Shown piece by piece: positions 2,541-22,291 of a stretch of 30,811 nt of DNA. Position 1 is the stretch's first letter, and the number at the start of each line of letters is the position of its first letter. Source of the stretch: a virus; the IMG/VR virus record IMGVR_UViG_3300017996_000014, positions 1 to 30,811 of that record. The stretch is one strand, 5' to 3'. The notes under the pieces were generated by a model, which made no database searches, was not told where the DNA came from, and saw nothing but the letters and a program-made list of their open reading frames with translations. The position numbers were made by a program, and so were the translations under genes.

Positions 2541-3473
2541 TTACTTCTTTTTCTTGGTGTCTTCGATGCCGTTGGCTTTGTTCACCAACTTCGTCAAATT
2601 CACCAAACCGTTTTCCCTCGCCGCAAGGTCTTCTGCACGCACGAAGAAGTCTTCCCACTGTCCGACCGTGAGATTCTTGGCGTCGTCCACCCTCTCAACG
2701 CTCATGAGGAAAACCAGCAGTTTGCGGTTCAACTTGATTCCTGCGCTCGCCGTCAATTTACCTTTCGAAGACAAGTCATCCGCGAGTTTGGTGAACCGCG
2801 CACGGAACCCAGTCATCTGCTCCTCAGTCGGCAGTTCGTTTTCGGATTCGTCTCCGGGTTCACGACCTGCAGGTGCAGAAGCCGTCGCTGCTGACAGAGA
2901 ATCCGCAGGCAGTGCACCAGATAATGGTTGGGTCTCCGCAGCTTGGGCTTTTGGGGATTCAATAGCGGTATCGCGGTTCGCAGGACGCGAAGCAGGAGCG
3001 CCGCGACGATTATCTTGAAAATCTGGCATCTCGTCTGATTGATAGTTCCCTCGGTCAATTCTTTCATCCGCCTCGGGGTCCGCTTCATCGGGCACGAGAA
3101 AGGCGTTTCGCATTGCGTACTTCGTGGCCCCCGTTTGGGCTTTGTAGATGGCTTTGTCTCCTGTATCTGCCCCCGTACCCAGTCCGCTGGATGTGATCGT
3201 CTCATTAGACTCCAAATCATGAAACACAATGGTGCAGCGAACATCCACCGCGTTAAAGGGGGCATTCGGTGCTTTCTCGCGAGCGATGGTGTATTGCCGT
3301 TCGTTGACCAAATTCACTTCGGCGTAGACACCGAGTTTCAAAAACGCTTTTCGTACCGCCCTAACCATATCCGTTGCCCGCACGAAGTCATAGTTTTGAT
3401 TCTTGTTGTGCCCTGACTTCTGAATGTGGTCAATCTCTTCGTACACCGAAATCAATTTCTGAATTAACGTCAT
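2541..3473 (-). CDS. erf: Erf-family single-strand annealing protein
   Basis: 310 residues. The N-terminal ~140 residues match the ERF superfamily: MTLIQKLISVYEEI, a K-SGHNKNQNYDF segment, and the signature GLGTGADTGDKAIYKA followed by TKYAMRNAFLVP and an acidic stretch. The Ala/Pro-rich middle and helical C-terminus ending in TKKKK look like a flexible linker plus a DNA- or SSB-contact tail. Erf proteins anneal complementary single strands during phage recombination and genome circularisation. The ATG at 3473 overlaps the HNH stop (ATGA) and has GAGG 4 nt upstream. The neighbouring ssb is the normal partner. Confidence 0.9.
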   Translation of the reverse strand: MTLIQKLISVYEEIDHIQKSGHNKNQNYDFVRATDMVRAVRKAFLKLGVYAEVNLVNERQYTIAREKAPNAPFNAVDVRCTIVFHDLESNETITSSGLGTGADTGDKAIYKAQTGATKYAMRNAFLVPDEADPEADERIDRGNYQSDEMPDFQDNRRGAPASRPANRDTAIESPKAQAAETQPLSGALPADSLSAATASAPAGREPGDESENELPTEEQMTGFRARFTKLADDLSSKGKLTASAGIKLNRKLLVFLMSVERVDDAKNLTVGQWEDFFVRAEDLAARENGLVNLTKLVNKANGIEDTKKKK

Positions 3474-3898
3474 AAAACCTCACTTTTTCTTTGAGATGTT
3501 TGTTCCAAATATGCGACGAGATACCCAGGAATCAGATGTGGTTCTTTCTCCACCATACCCAAAAGTAAATTACAGCGGTTACACAGCAAGCCTCGAACAC
3601 ACTTTCCACAAGATGTTTTCCCAGGACAGCAAGCGTGGTTGTGGTCGATTTGAGATGTATCCAAATCTCGTCCGCACGGACACTTGCCATTTTGGTGGAA
3701 CAATAAAAGCAAATAAAGCGATTCCGAAATTCCCATGCGTACGCAGCGACGATGAACTTTAGCCAAATAGGACCCATCGTAGTCAGGCCATTGGTCGGCA
3801 TGGTTTCGATAATAAGCCGCATGATAGCAGGAAGTGCACAACCCATGCCCCGCATTCACTTGATTTGTATGAGAGCATGTCCAAGCCAAAAGTCGCAT
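3470..3898 (-). CDS. endonuclease VII-type HNH endonuclease
   Basis: 142 residues from the ATG at 3898. Two zinc-type Cys pairs near the N-terminus (CTSC) and middle (CPCG) precede the nuclease core IDHNHACCPG and CGKCVRGLLCNRCNLLLG, the DHNH plus RGLLC..CN pattern of the recombination endonuclease VII/HNH superfamily. A longer frame exists to 4003 but would start inside the polymerase gene. The promoter at 3905-3933 lies between, so 3898 is the sensible start. The -10 ends only 6 nt before this ATG, so the transcript would be leaderless. It sits alone between polA and erf and looks like a mobile insertion. Confidence 0.88.
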   Translation of the reverse strand: MRLLAWTCSHTNQVNAGHGLCTSCYHAAYYRNHADQWPDYDGSYLAKVHRRCVRMGISESLYLLLLFHQNGKCPCGRDLDTSQIDHNHACCPGKTSCGKCVRGLLCNRCNLLLGMVEKEPHLIPGYLVAYLEQTSQRKSEVL

Positions 3899-3904
3899 TT
3901 CTGT

Positions 3905-3933
3905 ATAGTACCAAAGTCCCATTGCTTTGTCAA
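3905..3933 (-). promoter_or_regulatory. sigma70-type promoter of HNH gene
   Basis: A perfect TTGACA (3928-3933), 17 nt, then TACTAT (3905-3910). The TGA inside the -35 box is the stop codon of the DNA polymerase gene (3930-3932). The expected start site falls on or next to the A of the HNH ATG (3898). Confidence 0.88.
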
Positions 3934-6260
3934 CCCTTTTTATAGTACGGACCCTCGTACCCATCCGCCCCCAAAAGTAAACCTGGAGCCCAGTCAGGCA
4001 CAAGCGTCATACAGTATATCAAATCATCAAGACGAAGTCCATCCCAAATATCATCTTCTTCACAGGCCAATTCGTCGTGGAAGAGACCCCAGATATGAAA
4101 GTCCATTTTATCTGCTTCAAGCATGCCGTTCAAGAGGATGTCCCGAGCGATTGCTTGAATGGCGTTCTCGCACAACTTGCCCCCATACGTCTTGACTCGA
4201 CCCCATTTGTGTTTTTTCTTGGCGGTCGCACCATTCGCGTCCTGCGTCGCACTGTGCTCGATGCCGTCATAATAAATCGTGTGCGAAGTGTACGTGTGAA
4301 ATTCACCAGTTCGCGGGTCGGGTGTCTTGCTGGTGCGTTCCTCGTCTTCGATGGTCGCATTGATGTAGTGCAGGGCACGTCCAGACGGCAGTTCCATGCG
4401 AATTATGTAGCCGCCGCCCTCCATCGCCTTGCGTCGAAAGGTTATCACGCAGCCAAGACAGGTCTTGTGCTTCACCCACTCGCGTTCTTTTTTGTTCCAC
4501 GTCACCTCGCCGACTTTAATAACGCCGCCGCGTTTCAGCACCTGCTTGAACGCTTCCTCCAGGTCAGTCCAGAATTGCACAACCTCGGGATACGACTCAC
4601 GGAAAATCTTCACGGCTTCGTGAGCCAGTTCCTTCGACATGTCCACACCGCAGACCGATTTCGCATATCCCCACAACCCGCCCCGCACCTCATCACCGTT
4701 TTCGTTGACATACATGTCCCCGCCGCCAAGACCGTAGCCCGCGCCAAGCACCGCAGGCTTCGAATTCTGGCGGTCGTCATCATTGCCCGCTTTGTAGGCA
4801 GCCCACATCGCGGCATATTCTTTCTTGTACAGCTTGGTACCAAAAGAGATATACGGGCAGCGCGGTGTGGTTCCTCCGCATCGCGGGCAGTGGAAGGACC
4901 CCTGCAGGTTTTCCACAATGAAGCCGCACTCCGTGCACGTTTTGAATACATCCAAAATTGCTTTGCAGCCCGCCGCCCAACCTAGGCCGCGATTTTCAAT
5001 GGCATTCAGGTCGGCGACGACAAGTTTCTTACCCTTCTTCGCTTGGAACAACGAGCGCAGTAATGTGATGATGACTTCCACCACGCTGACGTTGTACGGC
5101 TTCTTAGTCTTTGGGTCTATCGCGTCCGTGAAGTCTCGCTTGATTCCCTCATAATCCTCATTTTCAAGGAGCAGCAGTGCGTGGTCGAGATTCTTTTTGA
5201 CCCACTTTACGCCGCGAGGGAGATTCTGCACCTGCACGTCGCCGCCTGCCCAGCGTCCAGAGCGTGCCGCCGCCATGTATTTGAATTGATAGCGAAGCCT
5301 GTCATCCAACATCGAGAGAACTGCCAGGAACCGCTCAAGTTTTTTGTACGACGTTTTGTTGGTCGTCGCCCGCAGTTTAAACGCTTCTCGGCACTCAGGT
5401 GTGATTTGTGATGTGGGATTGTCCAACTCAGCCGTCACGTAATTTGCTCTGACGGAATTCCACGAATACCCTCGTTCTTTTGCCCACGTTATCATTTGAT
5501 CGCGTGAGTTTGGGTTTTCCAGTTTAGTCAGGTCTTTCAGCTTTTTCTTCTGTTCATCCACGTAGCGTTGCGCGAGGCGTAGACCCTTCTCCGCAAGGTC
5601 ACGACGCCCCGGCATTCCGAAGGTGTTGATTTTCTGATCGAGCAGCCAGCCTTGCCAGTCACGTTCGGGAAACGCAACCGTCAATAGCCGATACCACAAG
5701 TCGCGCTCTGCCCGCACGTCCTGTTTGCAATATTTGCCATACTCTGCAAACTCTTTCGGATGGCTATTGTGATCGCGAAATAGTGGGGGTGCAATGCCGA
5801 ACAAAGTCATCTCGCCGCCCCTGCTCACAGGCTGGCAAAACATCATCTTCAACTCTTCGCCCCGAGGGTCTTTCAGTTCCTTCATCTTCAAAATTTTGGC
5901 GACGCTGTCCAGTTTTCCAGGGAGCGATAAATTATGAGCAAGGACAATGGGGTCTCGATACTGCGAGATAGGCACATGGAAATCAGATTCCACATAGCGA
6001 GGTCCCATGACGACGTTCGCAAACTCGCATTCAAACGTGGCGTTCCATGCGATTTTGATGATGGCGAGGTTGCGCCACGCATCAATGAGTTTTTGCGGCG
6101 GGGGACTCAAATGCGGCAACCACAATTCTATCTCTTCGCAGTCGAGCGCCCAAGCACACATCGAGATGCCTGTCGAGGGATGATGGACGTAGTTGTCCAG
6201 CCCCACCTCTTCCAAGTCGAGGAGAGAGAAAGTTTCGTAGTCAATGAATAGATAGCTCAA
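3930..6260 (-). CDS. family A DNA polymerase with 3'-5' exonuclease
   Basis: 776 residues, the phage replicase. Exo motif I is FIDYETFS (residues 5-12). Polymerase motif A is ADLNAIENR (D417), motif B is RQNSKPAVLGAGYG (R497, K501, Y509) and motif C is FHDE (H728, D729, E730). No 5'-3' exonuclease domain is present, as in T7-like and other phage PolA enzymes. Between motifs A and B is a zinc-ribbon-like insertion: CTEC (442-445) and CPRC (458-461). The start is a TTG at 6260 inside a TTGA overlap with the preceding gene's stop. An in-frame TAA lies just upstream and Exo I begins within 10 residues, so no ATG start is possible. The Shine-Dalgarno sequence is poor, suggesting translational coupling. 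Confidence 0.95.
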   Translation of the reverse strand: MSYLFIDYETFSLLDLEEVGLDNYVHHPSTGISMCAWALDCEEIELWLPHLSPPPQKLIDAWRNLAIIKIAWNATFECEFANVVMGPRYVESDFHVPISQYRDPIVLAHNLSLPGKLDSVAKILKMKELKDPRGEELKMMFCQPVSRGGEMTLFGIAPPLFRDHNSHPKEFAEYGKYCKQDVRAERDLWYRLLTVAFPERDWQGWLLDQKINTFGMPGRRDLAEKGLRLAQRYVDEQKKKLKDLTKLENPNSRDQMITWAKERGYSWNSVRANYVTAELDNPTSQITPECREAFKLRATTNKTSYKKLERFLAVLSMLDDRLRYQFKYMAAARSGRWAGGDVQVQNLPRGVKWVKKNLDHALLLLENEDYEGIKRDFTDAIDPKTKKPYNVSVVEVIITLLRSLFQAKKGKKLVVADLNAIENRGLGWAAGCKAILDVFKTCTECGFIVENLQGSFHCPRCGGTTPRCPYISFGTKLYKKEYAAMWAAYKAGNDDDRQNSKPAVLGAGYGLGGGDMYVNENGDEVRGGLWGYAKSVCGVDMSKELAHEAVKIFRESYPEVVQFWTDLEEAFKQVLKRGGVIKVGEVTWNKKEREWVKHKTCLGCVITFRRKAMEGGGYIIRMELPSGRALHYINATIEDEERTSKTPDPRTGEFHTYTSHTIYYDGIEHSATQDANGATAKKKHKWGRVKTYGGKLCENAIQAIARDILLNGMLEADKMDFHIWGLFHDELACEEDDIWDGLRLDDLIYCMTLVPDWAPGLLLGADGYEGPYYKKG

Positions 6261-11550: not shown

Positions 11551-11579
11551 ATAGTACTTCAGTTTGGGGTTTCTGTCAA
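11551..11579 (-). promoter_or_regulatory. sigma70-type promoter
   Basis: A perfect TTGACA (11574-11579), 17 nt, TACTAT (11551-11556). The -35 box and spacer also encode the last residues (LTETPN) of the HNH gene upstream. It drives the two-TM coiled-coil gene and, by read-through, the RecA/nucleotide/polymerase cassette. Confidence 0.9.
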
Positions 11580-12026
11580 GCGCTTTTTGAAGTATTCAAT
11601 CACGGGCAGGAGATGCTCGGGGTGGCGCGCGGCATCAAAGAACCTCTCGATATATCCGAGTCCCTTGTTGCATTTGAAGTCCAGCATACCGCGAATTGAC
11701 TGCGGCCTCATCAGCGCGCGAACGATGGCGATAGCTTGTTTTTTGGTGGGTGCGGTGGCTTGCTGTGCAACTTCACCACGCTCGTTGAACGCCTGAGCCG
11801 TCCAATCTCCGAAAACAGTATCTTGCGTGGCTTTCACGTAGAAATGGTAGTGGTCGATATTGGGAGGACCGTAGGCATCGAGGGGACCGCCGCAGATTTT
11901 GCACTTGCCGTTTTGCTCTCGGATGCGTTGCTCGCGGGCAGCAAGGGTGATTCCGAATTTGCGTTGGATTCGTTTATCTTTGTCGCGCTCTTTTTGCGCA
12001 TCTGTTCTTGTTTTTCCCTTCGCCAT
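11559..12026 (-). CDS. endonuclease VII-type HNH endonuclease
   Basis: 155 residues with a Lys/Arg-rich N-terminus (MAKGKTRTDAQKERDK). KCKICGG gives the first Cys pair, IDHYHF the catalytic-type His, then RGMLDFKCNKGLGYIERF and a helical tail EHLLPVIEYFKK, as in endonuclease VII-like phage proteins. About 50 residues are inserted between IDHYHF and RGML, longer than usual. The ATG at 12026 has GAGGAG upstream. Its 5' part overlaps the small membrane gene at 11834-12157 in another frame. Confidence 0.83.
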   Translation of the reverse strand: MAKGKTRTDAQKERDKDKRIQRKFGITLAAREQRIREQNGKCKICGGPLDAYGPPNIDHYHFYVKATQDTVFGDWTAQAFNERGEVAQQATAPTKKQAIAIVRALMRPQSIRGMLDFKCNKGLGYIERFFDAARHPEHLLPVIEYFKKRLTETPN

Positions 12027-12157
12027 TGCTTTCGCTCCTCGAATCTATCCGCGTTCATTCGCCATACTTCTCGCTCGTAATACCTAACCCACTCTCCCTG
12101 CCATACAATGACAATAAGCAGGAGAATTTCGAGGACCATCAGCAAGCGGTCGAACAT
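11834..12157 (-). CDS. small membrane protein overlapping HNH gene
   Basis: The ATG at 12157 has AGGAG 6 nt upstream. Residues 1-44 look genuine: a TM segment MVLEILLLIVIVW followed by a charged amphipathic stretch (GEWVRYYEREVWRM). From about residue 45 the frame runs into the HNH gene, and the last 50 residues are low-complexity Ser/Thr/Ala, as expected for an out-of-frame shadow. Either the two genes truly overlap by about 190 nt, or HNH insertion removed the original C-terminus of a short membrane protein. Confidence 0.6.
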   Translation of the reverse strand: MFDRLLMVLEILLLIVIVWQGEWVRYYEREVWRMNADRFEERKQWRREKQEQMRKKSATKINESNANSESPLLPASNASESKTASAKSAAVPSMPTVLPISTTTIST

Positions 12158-12181: not shown

Positions 12182-15100
12182 TTACTTCTTAATTTTACCG
12201 AATGCTTTGAGCAAATCCGTAGCGCTGTGTGCAGCCGATTTCGACTTGCCCGGTCGGACATAGGCGAACGATACTTTTGGCTCGGGCTTCTCTTCGGGCG
12301 CATTCGCTCCGAAGTTGAACGAGGTGTCGCCCTCGTCGCCTACTGCCGTTTCTGAAGTTGTTCCGGGAGTTGCTCCTCTATCTCCTGGTCCAGTGGCTCC
12401 TGCGGGGGATTCCCCGCGAACGCCAGGAGCAAATAATTCTCCCGTGTCACTGGGATTCCGTACTCCTCCAGCAGCTTCACGGTTCCATCGCTCTGCGTAA
12501 TCCCAGACTCGGTTTCGGGCTTCATCGGCTGTGATTTTTCCATCTGAGTGTTCCTTCCATATGGCGTCTACTGCCTTGAGATTCTCGTCCGTCTTAAAGT
12601 TGTCGTTGAAAACCTCTCGAATCTTAACCCATGTGGATGATTGTAGCCTACTCGGGATGGGAATGTCAAGCTCTTTCGCAGCGAGGCGATAGCCCGCATC
12701 GTGCAGCGGATATATGCCCTTGAGCCCGTACTCGCCGTTTTTGATATTACCGAAATTGTCTTTTACCGCAGGAGCCTTCCCCGACATCGGACGCAACTGG
12801 GTGACGTTCACCGCGTGTGTATCGATGGTCAAGAATCGCGGGTCATTCGGGGCCGCTTGGTTGTTGTAAAAGTTGCGAACCTTATGACCGTAGCCCAACT
12901 GTCTACTAATATTCTCGGGCGAACCGTCTTGCAAGATGTTGATGGCTTTTTCGATGTGTCTTTGGAAACTCCAGCCCACTTTTCTGGGTGTGCCATCCAT
13001 GTTCTTTGCGAGCCCGCCCGAGGTGCCATCAGGATTCCAGGTTTCATAATCGCGAGAATTGTGCCCCTCGTCATACAAGCGCAACCACCACGCCTGTTTT
13101 TCCTCGGATGGCAGTTCACTGAGCGTTTTACCCCGCAAATCTTTGAACATCGGCTTGAATTTCTTCATCGCCGGGATGCTGCTAATCCTGTCCGCTGCGT
13201 CCTGCATCTCAGGAGTAAATTTGGTGTTCTGTTGATTTTTCCAGATGTTGGCAGTACGTTCCGCCAGTGACGTATTCTGGTCCCAGTCGGTCATGGGAGA
13301 TTCTACGGAGGTGACGCCATAAATTTGCTCTGGTGTGAATCCATGCTGCTTCGCAACCGCGATGCCGCGATCATGTGCGCCCACAGGATACCACTGCTCA
13401 TCTTTCGCAATAGCTTCGGGCGTCAGCTTATTGTAAACGAACTTAACGTTGTCCGCGACATGTCGAATATAGGCATCTGCGTGAGTCTGGGCATCGTCGC
13501 CCTCGGGAACCTTGAAGCCGGGAGTATCTTTGATGCGATTCACCATCTTCGCGACGTAGCCTGGAGCCGCCTTCGCTGCTTCCATATCTGATATGCGACT
13601 TTGATCGGTGTGGTCTTCAACGGTTTCGCCCTTCACCGTTCTGCTTGGTACTCGGGTGCTCACGGTGTTGATGCCCTCGGGCGCTTTCGTCTCTGCAGTA
13701 ATCAGCGAGCGTGCTGAAACGGTTCCCGCGCCAGGGCGGACGGCATCGCGCTTTGCGTCGCGCACCAAGCGGTCGAGGCTGTCCGCATCGGTTACTGAGC
13801 CCGATGCTGACCCAATTTTGCCGTTACGCCGAATGTCTATCGTCACGTCGCCGGGATGTTTTTCTGTCGCACGCAAAATTACGTCCCCTTGTTCGGGTGT
13901 CAATCCCGATGCAGGCAACACCACGTTCACGCCACCCTTGTGCAGCATAATGCGAGCCGCACCAGTGCGTTCTGTGAATACTTCACGAGGATTCTCGTTG
14001 TACGCAACCGCGTCCGCCCCTGTGCGGGGTAAAATTGAGGATACGTCGCCGTGGTCTAGCGTTCGTGCGGGTTTGCCTTGCGAGAAGTCTAAGCCGCGAC
14101 CATCGGGCAAGATGAATCCCATCTTAGCTGGGTCGTCTGTGACGCCATAGGCTTTGATTGCGCGGTCTTCAAGCGTTTCGCCGGGAGCGAGCGCGGGAGT
14201 TATTTCTTTTTGAACGATTTGTCCAGGTCCGCCCGCACCTTCGCCTTCTCCTCGGGCGACATCTGTTCCACTGTCCGCGTCGCGTCCTGCAATAGCTGTT
14301 CGGTCGTCACCCCCTGCTTTTGTGGCTTCATCGGTCATTCTCCTCTTGGCTTCAGCAGCCATGTTATTCAAGCGTTCGGCACTGTAGTGAAACTGTCGAG
14401 ACAAATTCGGTTCCCGCACGCTCTCATTCTCTTTGATGATATCCGAGACTGCAGGTTTCGTCAAGTGCTCTTTTCCGTAGTCTATCGCATCGTGCATACG
14501 CTGCATCGCGGTGTCGTGGTCATAGCCCGCTGCTTTAAGAAAACGGTACGCTGAACCGCCGTCTGAACGAGAGCGAGAAATATAAAAATTGTGATTTGCG
14601 GCACGAGGCAGATCGTTAAACACTTCATCTGCCGCGATGCCACCCATAGCCGCCCGTACTACACCGTTCAATCTGTCCGGTTTGATTAAGTGAGTCCCTG
14701 GTTGATATTCCTTAGACGCATCCCACGACATGGCGGCTACAGCACCACTCATGTCAGGATGAGTGTGGCGCAGCATGCCGATAGGAGTCAGTCCTTCGTT
14801 CATTCCAACCATCGCATGCCCTAATTCATGCCGCATGGTTTGCTCAGGCAAGCGACCTGCAATTGCTTCGGGTATGGATAGAACTTTTTGCTTCGGGACT
14901 TTGTACTCGGTTGATGGTGTTCGTTCGCCCCCGCCCGCAATTTCCCACTCCGACCCTTCTGGGAATTTCTTTTGTGCGGTTTTGAGTGCGTCTTTAGATG
15001 AAAATGCATCAACCGTTTCGACTCGTTGCGTTCCATCGGGATTTTTGACGTAAATATTCCACGGCTGCTTCAGCGCCGTTTGACGCTCACTCATGGTGAG

Positions 15101-16693
15101 CGTTCCTTCGCCCGTGCCGCCTGTTGGAATCTCACTCATGCTGCCCAAATGGAAGATGGATTTTTGATTTGCCACTTGCCCCGCTTCAACCGCTTCATCT
15201 CTATCCGCGTACAGTTTGGCAATATCCAAAACAGATTTTCCAGTGTCCGGGTCTTTCCATGTGCCTACTGCATGATCGTCCTGAGCCAGCAAATCAGCAT
15301 TGTCTGTTTTGAATTTCGCCAAAACTTCAGGCGTCAGTTTATCAACCGACAACGTGCGTTCGGGGTATGAGCCAACTGAATACAAATCCTTCCCTGCAAG
15401 ATTGTCACCTTCCGGTGTGAACGTAGAGCCGCCGTTTTGTTCGTGCGCGGCTAGTTGGTCTTGCTTCCCGGTCGATACGGGTTCCCCGTCACCCGCTCGT
15501 ACGCTTCCTTCCGGTTGTCCACTGGTTGCGGTGGTTGCTGCGGTTGATTCTGCATTTGATGCCCCCTTTACTTGCTTGCCTGTGTCGCCATATACGGAAC
15601 TAAAATCTACGGTCTTCGGCGCAGACTCAACTCGCGGTTGCGTCAAATCCATCTTGTATCCCGGCGAGCCTGCCTTCGAAGAAATTTTCTCGACAGGATG
15701 ACCTTTTTGCTGCAGTCCATCCCAAACACGCGCCGCGTCCAGAGTCGTGCTCCCCTGCAAATCCGAAGTCATCTCGGGAACGCCCTTCGCACGTAGTTCA
15801 TCCGCAGCGCGAAGATACAACGCTTGCGCGTGCCCTTGTCCGCGATACTGCGGTTCAATGTGCGCCGCCGTCACCGCACCTGCAGCGGGTCGGTCTTCTT
15901 GCGGAATAGTGTATCGCACCCGCCCGACTTCTTTGTCATTATCCATCAAGCGAACAATACCACCAGACCGCCCAACAGGTTCGTGCGTAATGGTTGGAGT
16001 AGATGTTGGGGGCTTCACTTGCTTGCCGCCAACAGATTCAAAATTAAGAATTGGTTCTGCTTCCGCAGGAGCGGCGGGCAGTGCTGCAGGAGCCGCAGGG
16101 AGTTGCTTCTGAGGCTCAACCGTGATGACTTTGCCTGTGCGGGCTTCATCTAACCGGGCGGCGCTGCGAGCGGTCATACTCTCGCGTGCGGCTGCGCCTG
16201 CCTCATGAATTTGTTCTGGAACTTTTGCTGCTTCGCCCGTTAGAAGTGGCGCAACGGTACCCGTAAGCGTACCTAGAGAGCCACGAACATTGCCCTGTGC
16301 GGCTTGCTCTTCGGATTTGACGAGTCCGCCGCCGAGTAGCGGAATACCGCTCGTTAGATATTCGAGACCACCGATAGCTTTTTCGCTGAGCCCCGTTTTG
16401 CGTAGATGCTCGCGAGCAGTCGCTTGAGCGTCGGGATTGGTCGCAGCGGAGATGACGCCCTTCGCCGCGTCCATCATGGTGTTGATTGGATGCTCAGCAG
16501 CCGCAGCAATCTCGGCGGCTGTCTCACTACCAATTTCTTTAGCTGCTTCTGCCGGATGTGCACGCACGGCGCGAGCGGTCGCGCCTAGAGAGTCCGGGTC
16601 AACGCCCTGAGACGTAGCAAGCGAATGAAAGAATCCCTCGTCGGGCGGCGCAGCGGGCGGTGCCGCAGGAGTTGCTGTCTGGTCGTCTGCCAT
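12182..16693 (-). CDS. giant multidomain 'polyvalent'-type protein (GNAT, M41-like peptidase, DTHA module)
   Basis: 1503 residues, the largest gene here. An Ala/Pro-rich N-terminus (1-230) leads to a GNAT-like acetyltransferase domain (about 232-330; YRGQGHA at 283-289). After a linker, a zinc-metallopeptidase motif HELGH (622-626) is followed by GGIAADEVF (684-692) and D711, spaced as in FtsH-type M41 peptidases. A middle alpha/beta region (840-1010) and a C-terminal module (about 1075-1340) with YGHKVRNFYNN and TIDTHAV (D1291-A1294, DUF7178-like) complete it. Such unlinked enzyme domains in one polypeptide are typical of phage polyvalent proteins thought to be ejected with DNA and to modify or cleave host factors. 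No membrane segment is seen. The ATG has GAGG 4 nt upstream. Three linkers contain overprinted genes. Confidence 0.85.
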   Translation of the reverse strand: MADDQTATPAAPPAAPPDEGFFHSLATSQGVDPDSLGATARAVRAHPAEAAKEIGSETAAEIAAAAEHPINTMMDAAKGVISAATNPDAQATAREHLRKTGLSEKAIGGLEYLTSGIPLLGGGLVKSEEQAAQGNVRGSLGTLTGTVAPLLTGEAAKVPEQIHEAGAAARESMTARSAARLDEARTGKVITVEPQKQLPAAPAALPAAPAEAEPILNFESVGGKQVKPPTSTPTITHEPVGRSGGIVRLMDNDKEVGRVRYTIPQEDRPAAGAVTAAHIEPQYRGQGHAQALYLRAADELRAKGVPEMTSDLQGSTTLDAARVWDGLQQKGHPVEKISSKAGSPGYKMDLTQPRVESAPKTVDFSSVYGDTGKQVKGASNAESTAATTATSGQPEGSVRAGDGEPVSTGKQDQLAAHEQNGGSTFTPEGDNLAGKDLYSVGSYPERTLSVDKLTPEVLAKFKTDNADLLAQDDHAVGTWKDPDTGKSVLDIAKLYADRDEAVEAGQVANQKSIFHLGSMSEIPTGGTGEGTLTMSERQTALKQPWNIYVKNPDGTQRVETVDAFSSKDALKTAQKKFPEGSEWEIAGGGERTPSTEYKVPKQKVLSIPEAIAGRLPEQTMRHELGHAMVGMNEGLTPIGMLRHTHPDMSGAVAAMSWDASKEYQPGTHLIKPDRLNGVVRAAMGGIAADEVFNDLPRAANHNFYISRSRSDGGSAYRFLKAAGYDHDTAMQRMHDAIDYGKEHLTKPAVSDIIKENESVREPNLSRQFHYSAERLNNMAAEAKRRMTDEATKAGGDDRTAIAGRDADSGTDVARGEGEGAGGPGQIVQKEITPALAPGETLEDRAIKAYGVTDDPAKMGFILPDGRGLDFSQGKPARTLDHGDVSSILPRTGADAVAYNENPREVFTERTGAARIMLHKGGVNVVLPASGLTPEQGDVILRATEKHPGDVTIDIRRNGKIGSASGSVTDADSLDRLVRDAKRDAVRPGAGTVSARSLITAETKAPEGINTVSTRVPSRTVKGETVEDHTDQSRISDMEAAKAAPGYVAKMVNRIKDTPGFKVPEGDDAQTHADAYIRHVADNVKFVYNKLTPEAIAKDEQWYPVGAHDRGIAVAKQHGFTPEQIYGVTSVESPMTDWDQNTSLAERTANIWKNQQNTKFTPEMQDAADRISSIPAMKKFKPMFKDLRGKTLSELPSEEKQAWWLRLYDEGHNSRDYETWNPDGTSGGLAKNMDGTPRKVGWSFQRHIEKAINILQDGSPENISRQLGYGHKVRNFYNNQAAPNDPRFLTIDTHAVNVTQLRPMSGKAPAVKDNFGNIKNGEYGLKGIYPLHDAGYRLAAKELDIPIPSRLQSSTWVKIREVFNDNFKTDENLKAVDAIWKEHSDGKITADEARNRVWDYAERWNREAAGGVRNPSDTGELFAPGVRGESPAGATGPGDRGATPGTTSETAVGDEGDTSFNFGANAPEEKPEPKVSFAYVRPGKSKSAAHSATDLLKAFGKIKK
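12340..12543 (-). CDS. overprinted small protein, 67 residues (GIPVTRENYL family)
   Basis: It is nested in the +1 frame of the 1503-residue gene, opposite its linker residues 1384-1452. The ATG at 12543 has AAGGA 8 nt upstream. The product reads as a real, charged globular protein: VKLLEEYGIPVTRENYLLLA, then GNPPQEPLDQEIEEQLPEQL. The pattern IPVTRENYL...G.PP....E.E..LPE resembles a recurrent family of small phage and bacterial hypothetical proteins that I know by pattern only. The host-gene frame here is low-complexity Gly/Pro/Asp/Thr, so this frame looks the more constrained one. Function unknown. Confidence 0.75.
   Translation of the reverse strand: MEKSQPMKPETESGITQSDGTVKLLEEYGIPVTRENYLLLAFAGNPPQEPLDQEIEEQLPEQLQKRQ
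14200..14331 (-). CDS. overprinted small protein, 43 residues
   Basis: It is nested in the +1 frame of the 1503-residue gene, opposite linker residues 788-832. A strong Shine-Dalgarno AAGAGGAG ends 8 nt before the ATG (14331-14329); the frame ends in TAA (14200-14202). The product is highly charged and helical: MKPQKQGVTTEQLLQDATR, then VEQMSPEEKAKVRADLDKSF and a basic end. The helix-capping SPEEKAKVR and overall order are unlike a random shadow. Function unknown. It is too short to appear in standard ORF calls. Confidence 0.6.
   Translation of the reverse strand: MKPQKQGVTTEQLLQDATRTVEQMSPEEKAKVRADLDKSFKKK
15451..15555 (-). CDS. overprinted small peptide, 34 residues
   Basis: It is nested in the +1 frame of the 1503-residue gene, opposite linker residues 380-415. 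AAAGGGGG ends 6 nt before the ATG (15555-15553); the stop TAG is at 15451-15453. The product starts MQNQPQQPPQPVDN and continues RKEAYERVTGNPYRPGSKTN. The second half is plausible protein, while the Gln/Pro start is composition-driven. It is less certain than the two other overprinted genes but shares their frame, spacing and linker position. Confidence 0.45.
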   Translation of the reverse strand: MQNQPQQPPQPVDNRKEAYERVTGNPYRPGSKTN

Positions 16694-18682: not shown

Positions 18683-18699
18683 TTCGCTTCCTCAAAGAG

Positions 18700-18772
18700 A
18701 GCCCGAAGATGGATTCGAACCACCGTCTTCCAGTTTACAAAACTGGGCTCTAACCCGCTGAGCTATTCGGGC
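18700..18772 (-). tRNA. tRNA-Thr (anticodon TGT)
   Basis: 73 nt without encoded CCA. Acceptor GCCCGAA pairs with TTCGGGC, discriminator T. The D arm is GCTC/GAGC. The anticodon stem CCAGT/ACTGG holds loop TTTGTAA, so the anticodon is TGT (reads ACA). The T arm is GGTGG/CCATC with TTCGAAT. All arms fold normally. Confidence 0.95.
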
Positions 18773-18782
18773 GAAAAATCCT

Positions 18783-18885
18783 GGTGCCTGCGGGGACCTT
18801 CGTTTCACTATTAGCCGCCGCGACCTTCGTACGCTACTGCTGCAGCCTCACGTACGCTGTTCCCTCATGGATGAACTCAAGCACC
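18783..18885 (-). other. non-coding spacer with closing inverted repeat
   Basis: It lies between tRNA-Thr and the permuted tRNA candidate. GGTGCTTG (18878-18885) and CAGGCACC (18783-18790) can pair over 8 bp (one G-U), enclosing 87 nt that include a CGTACG...CGTACG stem. There is no ORF of note. One such repeat is expected by chance in a region this size, so an RNA function is only a possibility. Confidence 0.25.
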
Positions 18886-18894
18886 GAAAATTAC

Positions 18895-19000
18895 GGGAAG
18901 TGTCCTGAACCACTAGACGACAAAACCATGGACTCACACGCGTTGCACCGCGCTGCCAGATTTGGTCTATGGCGGGATTCGAACCCGCGTTTCTTCCCTA
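18895..19000 (-). ncRNA. candidate circularly permuted tRNA (3' half before 5' half)
   Basis: In reading order: GGGAAG (18998-18993), AAAC, a perfect T arm GCGGG-TTCGAAT-CCCGC (18988-18972) and acceptor-like CATAGAC (18971-18965). After about 30 nt comes GTCCATG (18933-18927), complementary to CATAGAC at 6 of 7 positions. Then 6 nt, a tRNA-Glu-type D arm (TC, GTCT, AGTGGTTCA, GGAC; 18920-18902), A, and CTTCCC (18900-18895), the exact complement of GGGAAG. The arms thus assemble into a tRNA if the order of the halves is swapped, with the break in the anticodon loop. The 6 extra nt after the acceptor and the lack of a clear anticodon are problems. Decay of two unrelated tRNAs is the alternative. 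Confidence 0.4.
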
Positions 19001-19011
19001 TTCACGTCCGA

Positions 19012-19039
19012 ATTATACCACGAATTTCGGACATGTCAA
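19012..19039 (-). promoter_or_regulatory. sigma70-type promoter inside tRNA region
   Basis: A perfect TTGACA (19034-19039), 16 nt, a perfect TATAAT (19012-19017). An inverted repeat, GTCCGAA (19026-19032) and TTCGGAC (19006-19012), flanks and overlaps the -10, a possible operator. The start site (about 19005) lies a few bases before the GGGAAG of the permuted tRNA candidate. The -35 begins 9 nt after the CCA of tRNA-Gly. Confidence 0.88.
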
Positions 19040-19047
19040 GCGAAAAA

Positions 19048-19121
19048 TGGAGCGGGCGGTGAGAATCGAACTCACTCGTACAGTTTGGTGGACTGTCACA
19101 CTGCCAATATGTGACGCCCGC
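19048..19121 (-). tRNA. tRNA-Gly-like with unusual anticodon loop (ACC, C33)
   Basis: 74 nt including encoded CCA. Acceptor GCGGGCG/CGCCCGC with discriminator T, as in bacterial tRNA-Gly. The D arm is ACAT/GTGT with loop ATTGGCA, and the T arm is GTGAG/CTCAC with TTCGATT. The anticodon stem ACAGT/ACTGT is perfect, but its loop is CCACCAA. Position 33 is C instead of the near-universal T, and the anticodon reads ACC (Gly, GGU) with an A at the wobble position. The body is clearly a glycine tRNA; the loop is not normal. Confidence 0.88.
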
Positions 19122-19289
19122 TCAGAAAATTGTGTCGGGATTTTTGGTATTCTCTTTGGTGTGTTCCGACACGCGAGACGCGATACGGGTCCGACTTTAG
19201 TTGTGCGTTATCCCTGTGCTCGTTTTCACAAGCGAACCGTACATCTCGCTACCACCAAATCATCGGAGAATGACTCCGCAACCTTATAT
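19122..19289 (-). other. structured non-coding leader between promoter and tRNA-Gly
   Basis: No ORF is supported. Transcribed from the promoter at 19290-19318, it contains the hairpin CGGAG-TCATT-CTCCG and GCTTGT-GAAA-ACGAGC with a GNRA loop. It also has a possible closing stem, TTTGGTG (19253-19259) with CACCAAA (19155-19161), and GTGTCGG/CCGACAC close to tRNA-Gly. It may be a tRNA precursor leader or a small RNA. No known RNA family was recognised. Confidence 0.3.
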
Positions 19290-19318
19290 ATCTTACCGCA
19301 ATACTACCTAGCAGTCAA
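19290..19318 (-). promoter_or_regulatory. sigma70-type promoter inside tRNA region
   Basis: TTGACT (19313-19318), 17 nt, TAAGAT (19290-19295). The -35 starts 8 nt after the CCA of tRNA-fMet, the same layout as the promoter after tRNA-Gly (both follow CCATTTTTC). Confidence 0.78.
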
Positions 19319-19326
19319 GAGAAAAA

Positions 19327-19402
19327 TGGTTGCGGGAGAAGGATTTGAACCTTCGACTGCGGTTTATGAGACCGCCGAGTTACCTAACTACTCCATCCCG
19401 CG
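19327..19402 (-). tRNA. initiator-type tRNA-fMet (anticodon CAT)
   Basis: 76 nt with encoded CCA. Acceptor CGCGGGA/TCCCGCA leaves C1 and A72 unpaired, the key feature of bacterial initiator tRNA. The D stem GAGT/ACTC has the initiator-type A11-T24 pair. The anticodon stem GCGGT/ACCGC with loop CTCATAA keeps two of the three G-C pairs of the usual initiator GGG/CCC element. The T arm is GAAGG/CCTTC with TTCAAAT. Elongator tRNA-Met would pair 1-72. Confidence 0.94.
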
Positions 19403-19426
19403 TCAACTTTTTCTACAATAAAACTT

Positions 19427-19482
19427 GACGGTCTGTGCGGCGACCCAGGCTCTGCACCCTGTTCTTGCCGCCGCACGCCGTC
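19427..19482 (-). other. long GC-rich hairpin
   Basis: A three-tier stem on the minus strand: GACGG/CCGTC (5 bp), GTGCGGCG/CGCCGCAC (8 bp) and an inner CAGG/CCTG, with small internal loops. It is followed by CAAGTTTTATTG, a weak T-rich stretch. It lies between tRNA-Ala and tRNA-fMet. It could be a weak terminator, a processing barrier or a small RNA. An ORF across this area (19413-19604) is not protein-like. Confidence 0.5.
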
Positions 19483-19500
19483 CGTGGGCTTTTACTTCTC

Positions 19501-19571
19501 TTGGGTGATGGGCTTCCATTTGTTTGTCTTGCGGCGACAGGCAAGCCAACCCGCCTTTTCATTTCACCCAA
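19501..19571 (-). other. tRNA-like folded spacer
   Basis: TTGGGTGA (19564-19571) and TCACCCAA (19501-19508) pair over 8 bp around 55 nt. Inside, CTTGC/GCAAG encloses CTGTCGCC, close to a tRNA-Asp anticodon arm but with an 8-nt loop. No T arm or proper D arm is found, so it is not a canonical tRNA. It could be a decayed tRNA, or chance. Confidence 0.25.
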
Positions 19572-19574
19572 ACT

Positions 19575-19650
19575 TGGTGGACAAAGGGAGACTTGAACTC
19601 CCAACCTCCTGCGTGCAAGGCAGGCGCTCTGCCAGTTGAGCTATTCGCCC
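19575..19650 (-). tRNA. tRNA-Ala (anticodon TGC)
   Basis: 76 nt with encoded CCA. Acceptor GGGCGAA/TTTGTCC includes the G3-T70 wobble pair that defines alanine identity, discriminator A. The D arm is GCTC/GAGC. The anticodon stem CCTGC/GCAGG holds loop CTTGCAC (TGC, reads GCA). The T arm is GGGAG/CTCCC with TTCAAGT. It is the first tRNA after the terminator at 19678-19715. Confidence 0.96.
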
Positions 19651-21871: not shown

Positions 21872-22291
21872 CTAAAACTTAACGCGAACTCGCAAAATTT
21901 CTTTCTTATGGTTGTGATTACAGCAGAGGGTTTGATATCCGGGAGGGTAGTTTTCATTGCGTAGCCTGCGATATAGTTCATGTCCTTTATCACCATTCAA
22001 AGCCTTACGACGCTCTTGTGCACCATTATTTTCTATGTGGTCTAGCACAAGCATGTCGATATCATCAATCTCGCACCCAGGCCATGAACATTGCAATTTC
22101 TCCTGCGGCCCATAATGGGATAGAACGTCGGTTTTAATTGTGGTCCTTGATTTCGCTGTATATTGATGAACTTTAGGTGCTCGACGATTATAAACACATT
22201 GACGACAAATTCCCGCATTACGACGATGAAATTTGGTGGAATCCGTCTCTCCACAAACTCTGCAAAGTCGTAGTTGTTTCTTCCAAGGCAT
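21872..22291 (-). CDS. HNH endonuclease
   Basis: 139 residues. CRVCGE and CRQCVYNRR form an N-terminal zinc ribbon, then VLSHYGP, CSWPGC, MLVLDHIENNGAQERR, LYRRL and YPPGYQTLCCNHNHKK, the standard phage HNH layout. The -10 of its promoter ends 6 nt before the ATG (22291), so no Shine-Dalgarno leader is transcribed. It is inserted between the scaffold-like and capsid genes. Confidence 0.9.
   Translation of the reverse strand: MPWKKQLRLCRVCGETDSTKFHRRNAGICRQCVYNRRAPKVHQYTAKSRTTIKTDVLSHYGPQEKLQCSWPGCEIDDIDMLVLDHIENNGAQERRKALNGDKGHELYRRLRNENYPPGYQTLCCNHNHKKEILRVRVKF

Follow-up and report, generated by a model that had tools for sequence, protein, structure and literature searches.

Conserved small genes read in a second frame inside the interdomain linkers of a giant phage protein gene

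Introduction

Two small phage genes are read in a second frame inside the joints of a giant phage protein gene and are conserved in this way across many related phages. This suggests that giant proteins were built by reading through older small genes. A third candidate in the same gene could not be confirmed. The genes are supported by comparative evidence, while their translation and functions are inferred only. They appear to be undescribed, although this is provisional because our literature searches were limited to open papers.

The window, i.e., the whole stretch of DNA analysed, is a viral record of 30.8 kb (30,811 nucleotides). An earlier note, made from this sequence alone, claimed that three small overprinted ORFs with ribosome sites lie in the same +1 frame opposite low-complexity linkers of one 1503-residue protein, and suggested that small genes were captured or retained inside interdomain linkers. 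We tested these claims by comparing the gene with its relatives. Loci of relatives are designated by the letter L and a number, and the long genes are called giants.

Results

The giant gene and its three internal ORFs

The features considered here are listed below; all are on the minus strand.
12182..16693 (-), giant multidomain gene, 1503 aa (GNAT, HExxH peptidase-like region, further modules, DUF7178, tail); Pfam matches to DUF7178 (2.3e-18) and Acetyltransf_1 (3.6e-4, just above its cut-off)
15770..15967 (-), GNAT-like domain (PF00583) preceding ORF1
15562..15569 (-), AAAGGGGG, SD-like sequence of ORF1 (7 pairs if G-U is allowed), 6 nt before the ATG
15451..15555 (-), ORF1, 34 codons, candidate only, in the linker between GNAT and the following module
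15104..15484 (-), mobile module following ORF1, its first codons overlapping the end of ORF1; found by blastp before DUF7178 in relatives (74% identical in L020)
14816..14830 (-), HELGH motif (HExxH) of the peptidase-like region preceding ORF2
14340..14347 (-), AAGAGGAG, Shine-Dalgarno (SD) sequence of ORF2, 8 nt before the ATG
14200..14331 (-), ORF2, nested +1 gene, 43 aa, core TTEQL...QMSPEEKAKxRxxLxKS, in the linker after the HExxH peptidase-like region
12545..13729 (-), region modelled as the DUF7178 domain (Pfam match 12614-12967; AlphaFold pLDDT 91), ending where ORF3 starts
12552..12556 (-), AAGGA, SD sequence of ORF3, 8 nt before the ATG; comparable in close relatives
12340..12543 (-), ORF3, nested +1 gene, 67 aa, overlapping the end of DUF7178 and the C-terminal tail of the giant

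The observation of the earlier note was confirmed: the three ORFs are present exactly as described, with their ATGs, frames and purine-rich upstream sequences. They are the only ORFs of 30 or more codons in either alternative frame of this gene that have an ATG and at least five consecutive anti-SD pairs (G-U allowed). The placement opposite a linker rather than a domain holds for ORF1 and ORF2, whereas the first bases of ORF3 overlap the end of the DUF7178 domain (the HMM match ends 14 nt inside ORF3).

To estimate the chance expectation, we redrew synonymous codons while keeping the 1503-aa protein fixed. On average 0.73 such +1 ORFs of 34 or more codons are expected, and three or more occur in 1.7% of draws. 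In 28 long ORFs (48,701 codons) the empirical rate of unassigned ORFs of this quality is 0.62 per 1503 codons. A local redraw gave a probability of an open +1 frame, given the linker protein, of 0.82, 0.61 and 0.80 for the three ORFs. Thus the count is only mildly unusual, and neither the open frames nor the shared +1 frame is surprising on its own. Conservation is the decisive evidence: it is overwhelming for ORF3, strong for ORF2 and absent for ORF1.

ORF3 is a conserved nested gene

A search with the ORF3 protein found one related phage population and then further phages. With an alignment of seven sequences, 143 relatives were found in IMG/VR, of which 80 were kept, together with five contigs of prokaryote assemblies. 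ORF3 has relatives in over 80 viral contigs. The family signature is P-[LV]-T-R-E-N-Y-L followed by an acidic LDxExExxLP stretch. In 44 of 59 non-redundant loci ORF3 lies wholly inside the long gene; in most of the rest it is a nearly separate gene just after it. In every case where a relative overlaps a long same-strand ORF, the frame relation is +1. The start is ATG in 78 of 82 ORF3 copies and an SD of 4 or more nt is present in 79 of 82, but these counts are biased upwards, since starts were chosen with weight on ATG and SD.

Differences by codon position indicate purifying selection in the nested frame. In the group of the window, main-frame differences at the first, second and third positions are 0.214, 0.166 and 0.536 in the 150 codons upstream and 0.352, 0.252 and 0.198 inside ORF3. 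The third position, normally the most variable, becomes the least variable, while the first position, which is the wobble of ORF3, rises. A lowered third and a raised first position are found in the seven other nested groups as well. This test aligns sequences by the ORF3 frame. We therefore also performed an unbiased scan of main-frame alignments over whole giants (three pairs, over 5,500 aligned codons); the only windows of the scan in which the third position varies no more than the first are at ORF3 and at an ORF2-family gene.

Both frames are maintained. When synonymous codons of ORF3 are redrawn, the main frame would be open across it with a mean probability of 0.048, yet it is open in all 31 nested loci tested. 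These loci were selected as nested, so this shows maintenance and not frequency.

ORF3 was not found in 50,697 phage records searched with three different members of the family. The three phages with DUF7178 among these records show no ORF3, so ORF3 is not essential to the domain; in one phage, CRP-738, a DUF7178 relative lies near the portal gene, which is the only context bearing on injection with the phage DNA. None of 51 ORF3 members matches Pfam or PHROGs. The predicted ORF3 structure consists of helices with a disordered N-terminus (pLDDT 75) and has no PDB match. A motif GYGHKVRNF...TIDTHAV suggested that DUF7178 might be an HhH-GPD DNA glycosylase. The AlphaFold model of the domain is good, but it gave no significant PDB fold match and there was no sequence match, and we do not claim this identity.

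ORF2 is a conserved nested gene

All 11 giants of the window's group carry an SD-bearing +1 ORF of the TTEQL...SPEEKAKxR family, which starts 161-180 codons after an HExxH motif. L001 has a second copy one linker further on, and L025 has a tandem copy within one linker (5331-5585). Pooled differences by main codon position are 0.478, 0.453 and 0.262, the third position again being the lowest. In the window the nearest upstream +1 stop lies two codons before the ATG, so the product would need its own start. None of eight ORF2 members matches PHROGs, and the copy of the window has only a sub-threshold hit to DUF1129 in Pfam. No free-standing ORF2 was found.

ORF1 remains unproven

No relative of ORF1 was found by a scan of viral contigs with the protein, by a search with a degenerate DNA pattern for YERVTGNP, in 50 whole viral records, or in local frames, and the giants related to the window lack it. 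Selection in its frame therefore could not be assessed. Its SD-like sequence is the strongest among the unassigned ORFs, and it lies just upstream of a mobile module that in L020 and L001 is preceded by ORF2-type genes, so it may be a third such gene. However, its composition is not distinguishable from chance (P 0.14), and 0.6-0.7 such ORFs per giant are expected by chance.

Other candidates of the same kind occur in distant giants. These are protein-like +1 ORFs with good SD, of 73 codons at codon 736 of the L072 giant (125 codons after an HExxH motif) and of 56 codons at codon 967 of the L076 giant. Each was seen in only one phage population; they are possibly further trapped small genes.

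Placement of ORF3 relative to DUF7178

Nearly all ORF3 relatives sit at the 3' end of a DUF7178 domain. Where DUF7178 (PF23802) is found, its match ends within -58 to +17 nt of the ORF3 start in nearly all loci. The exceptions are L052/L053, L056 and L059, and the ORF3 starts assigned in L052/L053 and L056 are uncertain. Five loci (L032, L094, L096-L098) show an ORF3-like stretch without DUF7178.

Four states coexist: separate or nearly so (overlaps of 20-29 nt), partly overlapping (53-122 nt), fully enclosed near the C-terminus (7-52 giant codons left), and enclosed in the interior (131-1501 codons left; 13 of the 44 fully nested loci). Overlaps of 20, 26, 29, 53, 65, 71 and 122 nt form a graded series. 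In L026 the giant continues for 232 codons beyond ORF3 (after 8201) with a second HExxH (HEAGH) region. The separate or nested state needs at least five changes on the unrooted DUF7178 tree. Separate copies lie mostly in lower-GC DNA. A search for the domain that follows ORF3 as a separate downstream gene in unfused loci gave no hit, and hence no specific fusion event (separate in one phage, fused in another) was seen.

Other features of the window

A membrane-protein-like gene (11834-12157, minus strand) and an Endonuclease VII gene (11559-12026, minus strand) overlap by 193 nt in phase +2, and the same pair overlaps in L019, L020, L022 and L001. At least two Endonuclease VII genes are present in this small phage genome (11559-12026 and 20355-20783, minus strand); there are perhaps two more, at 3470-4003 and 21872-22291, which look similar by eye. 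Four tRNA genes (Thr, Gly, Met, Ala) lie at 18699-19650 (minus strand), with ORFs opposite them that are probably spurious.

Discussion

We consider it likely that ORF3 and ORF2 are genuine small genes read in the +1 frame inside the giant gene, each started independently from its own internal SD and ATG on the mRNA of the giant. In this view each belongs to the domain just upstream of it, ORF3 to DUF7178 and ORF2 to the HExxH peptidase-like region. ORF3 would originally have been a separate gene starting at or just inside the 3' end of the DUF7178 gene, in phase +1. Loss of the DUF7178 stop would have let its frame run through ORF3 until the next stop and, in several lineages, on into further domains. 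The result would be a giant protein whose linker or tail is the second reading of an older small gene, with both frames now under selection. Because the small starting overlap would already be +1, any later extension would keep this frame. Stop-codon loss in the upstream gene is the route expected for prokaryotic unidirectional overlaps, including the phase-1 excess and its link with GC (PMC3887535, PMC2542354).

Our analysis demonstrates the coding conservation of ORF2 and ORF3, their conserved placement, the constant +1 relation, the coexistence of the four states and the non-random openness of the main frame. Translation itself, the direction of change (overrun rather than later separation) and function are inferred. 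For ORF2 the history of overrun is inferred by analogy with ORF3 only, and ORF1 does not fit. Since each small gene stays with one domain while other modules are reshuffled, we tentatively propose that the small proteins are co-made partners or regulators of the adjacent domain; this functional step is speculative.

The interpretation given in the earlier note is partly supported. It is right that small genes are retained inside interdomain linkers for two of the three ORFs. The note had named conservation in related phages and a drop in synonymous variation as the test, and ORF2 and ORF3 passed it: starts, frame and protein are conserved in relatives, and synonymous variation in the main frame drops there. 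The claim is not supported for ORF1. The common frame is not independent evidence, as it follows from composition and from the phase-1 overlap bias (PMC2542354, PMC3887535). Capture inside linkers is probably the wrong direction: ORF3 also exists almost free-standing after the DUF7178 gene, so the linker or tail of the giant more likely grew over an older small gene.

The main alternative is that ORF2 and ORF3 arose de novo by overprinting inside the linkers and that some lineages later truncated the giant and thus freed them. The openness of linkers in the +1 frame makes such a birth easy, no free-standing ORF2 was found, and, as the tree cannot be rooted firmly, secondary truncation of an ancestrally long main frame is not excluded. 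Nevertheless, we regard this as unlikely. Within nested regions ORF3 is better conserved than the main frame (0.66 versus 0.55; 0.69 versus 0.53), its core is shared by very divergent phages with unrelated surroundings, and the main frame over ORF3 would rarely be open by chance, suggesting that it adapted to ORF3.

The remaining explanations appear very unlikely for ORF2 and ORF3. Chance ORFs, resulting from low-complexity, GC-rich linkers that leave the +1 frame open and from common SD-like purine runs, are a fair account of ORF1. For ORF2 and ORF3 this reading is refuted, since their proteins are conserved while main-frame third positions are depressed exactly there, and ORF3 also exists as a nearly separate gene. 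Programmed +1 frameshifting, giving alternative C-termini of the giant, would agree with the constant +1 relation and with the +1 frame being open for some codons before the ATG in some phages. However, in 11 non-redundant nested loci a +1 stop immediately precedes the ORF3 start, and a stop lies 2-5 codons before about half of the ORF2 starts, the one in the window included, which argues against frameshift access, as do the conserved ATG and SD and the nearly separate copies of ORF3. Finally, internal SD motifs lie at domain ends and could be ribosome pause sites that help co-translational folding, the ORFs being by-products, but this does not explain the conservation of 40-70 residues in the +1 frame beyond the SD.

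A more general reading, which we consider about as likely as not, is that giant phage proteins of this kind were assembled by reading through small partner genes. Each domain would once have travelled with its own small partner gene behind it, and fusion would have run over those genes without destroying them. Interdomain linkers would therefore be dual-coding, with the small proteins still made as partners or regulators of the adjacent domains. It would mean that some low-complexity linkers of giant phage proteins are second readings of older genes, that standard gene finders miss a class of conserved small phage proteins, and that gene fusion in phages can proceed without losing the gene in between. 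The loci in the four states make the path of such fusions directly comparable, and the small proteins are linked to specific domains whose functions can be tested.

The giant resembles the polyvalent proteins of phages and plasmids (PMC5512222), which are large proteins combining unrelated domains, zincin-like peptidase and GNAT domains among them. The giant of the window likewise joins several disparate domains, i.e., a GNAT domain just above the Pfam cut-off, DUF7178 and an HExxH motif, with modules reordered among relatives. The text of that paper does not use the word overlap and mentions no genes nested in linkers, and DUF7178 is not named in any paper of the library searched.

Nested same-strand genes occur in other phages, e.g., Rz1 in Rz of lambda, and E in D and B and K in A of phiX174. 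There too a short gene lies fully or largely inside a longer gene on the same strand, with its own start site and in another frame. Those hosts are ordinary short proteins; here the hosts are large multidomain proteins, the nested genes sit at domain ends, more than one occurs per giant, and nearly separate versions exist. Long phase-1 overlaps formed by stop-codon loss in prokaryotes (PMC2542354, PMC3887535) share with our case the +1 phase, the elongation of the upstream 3' end, which is inferred here, and the correlation with GC, the separate copies here lying mostly in lower-GC DNA. In our case the gene inferred to have been overrun is fully enclosed and often followed by further fused domains, and this is repeated across many phages.
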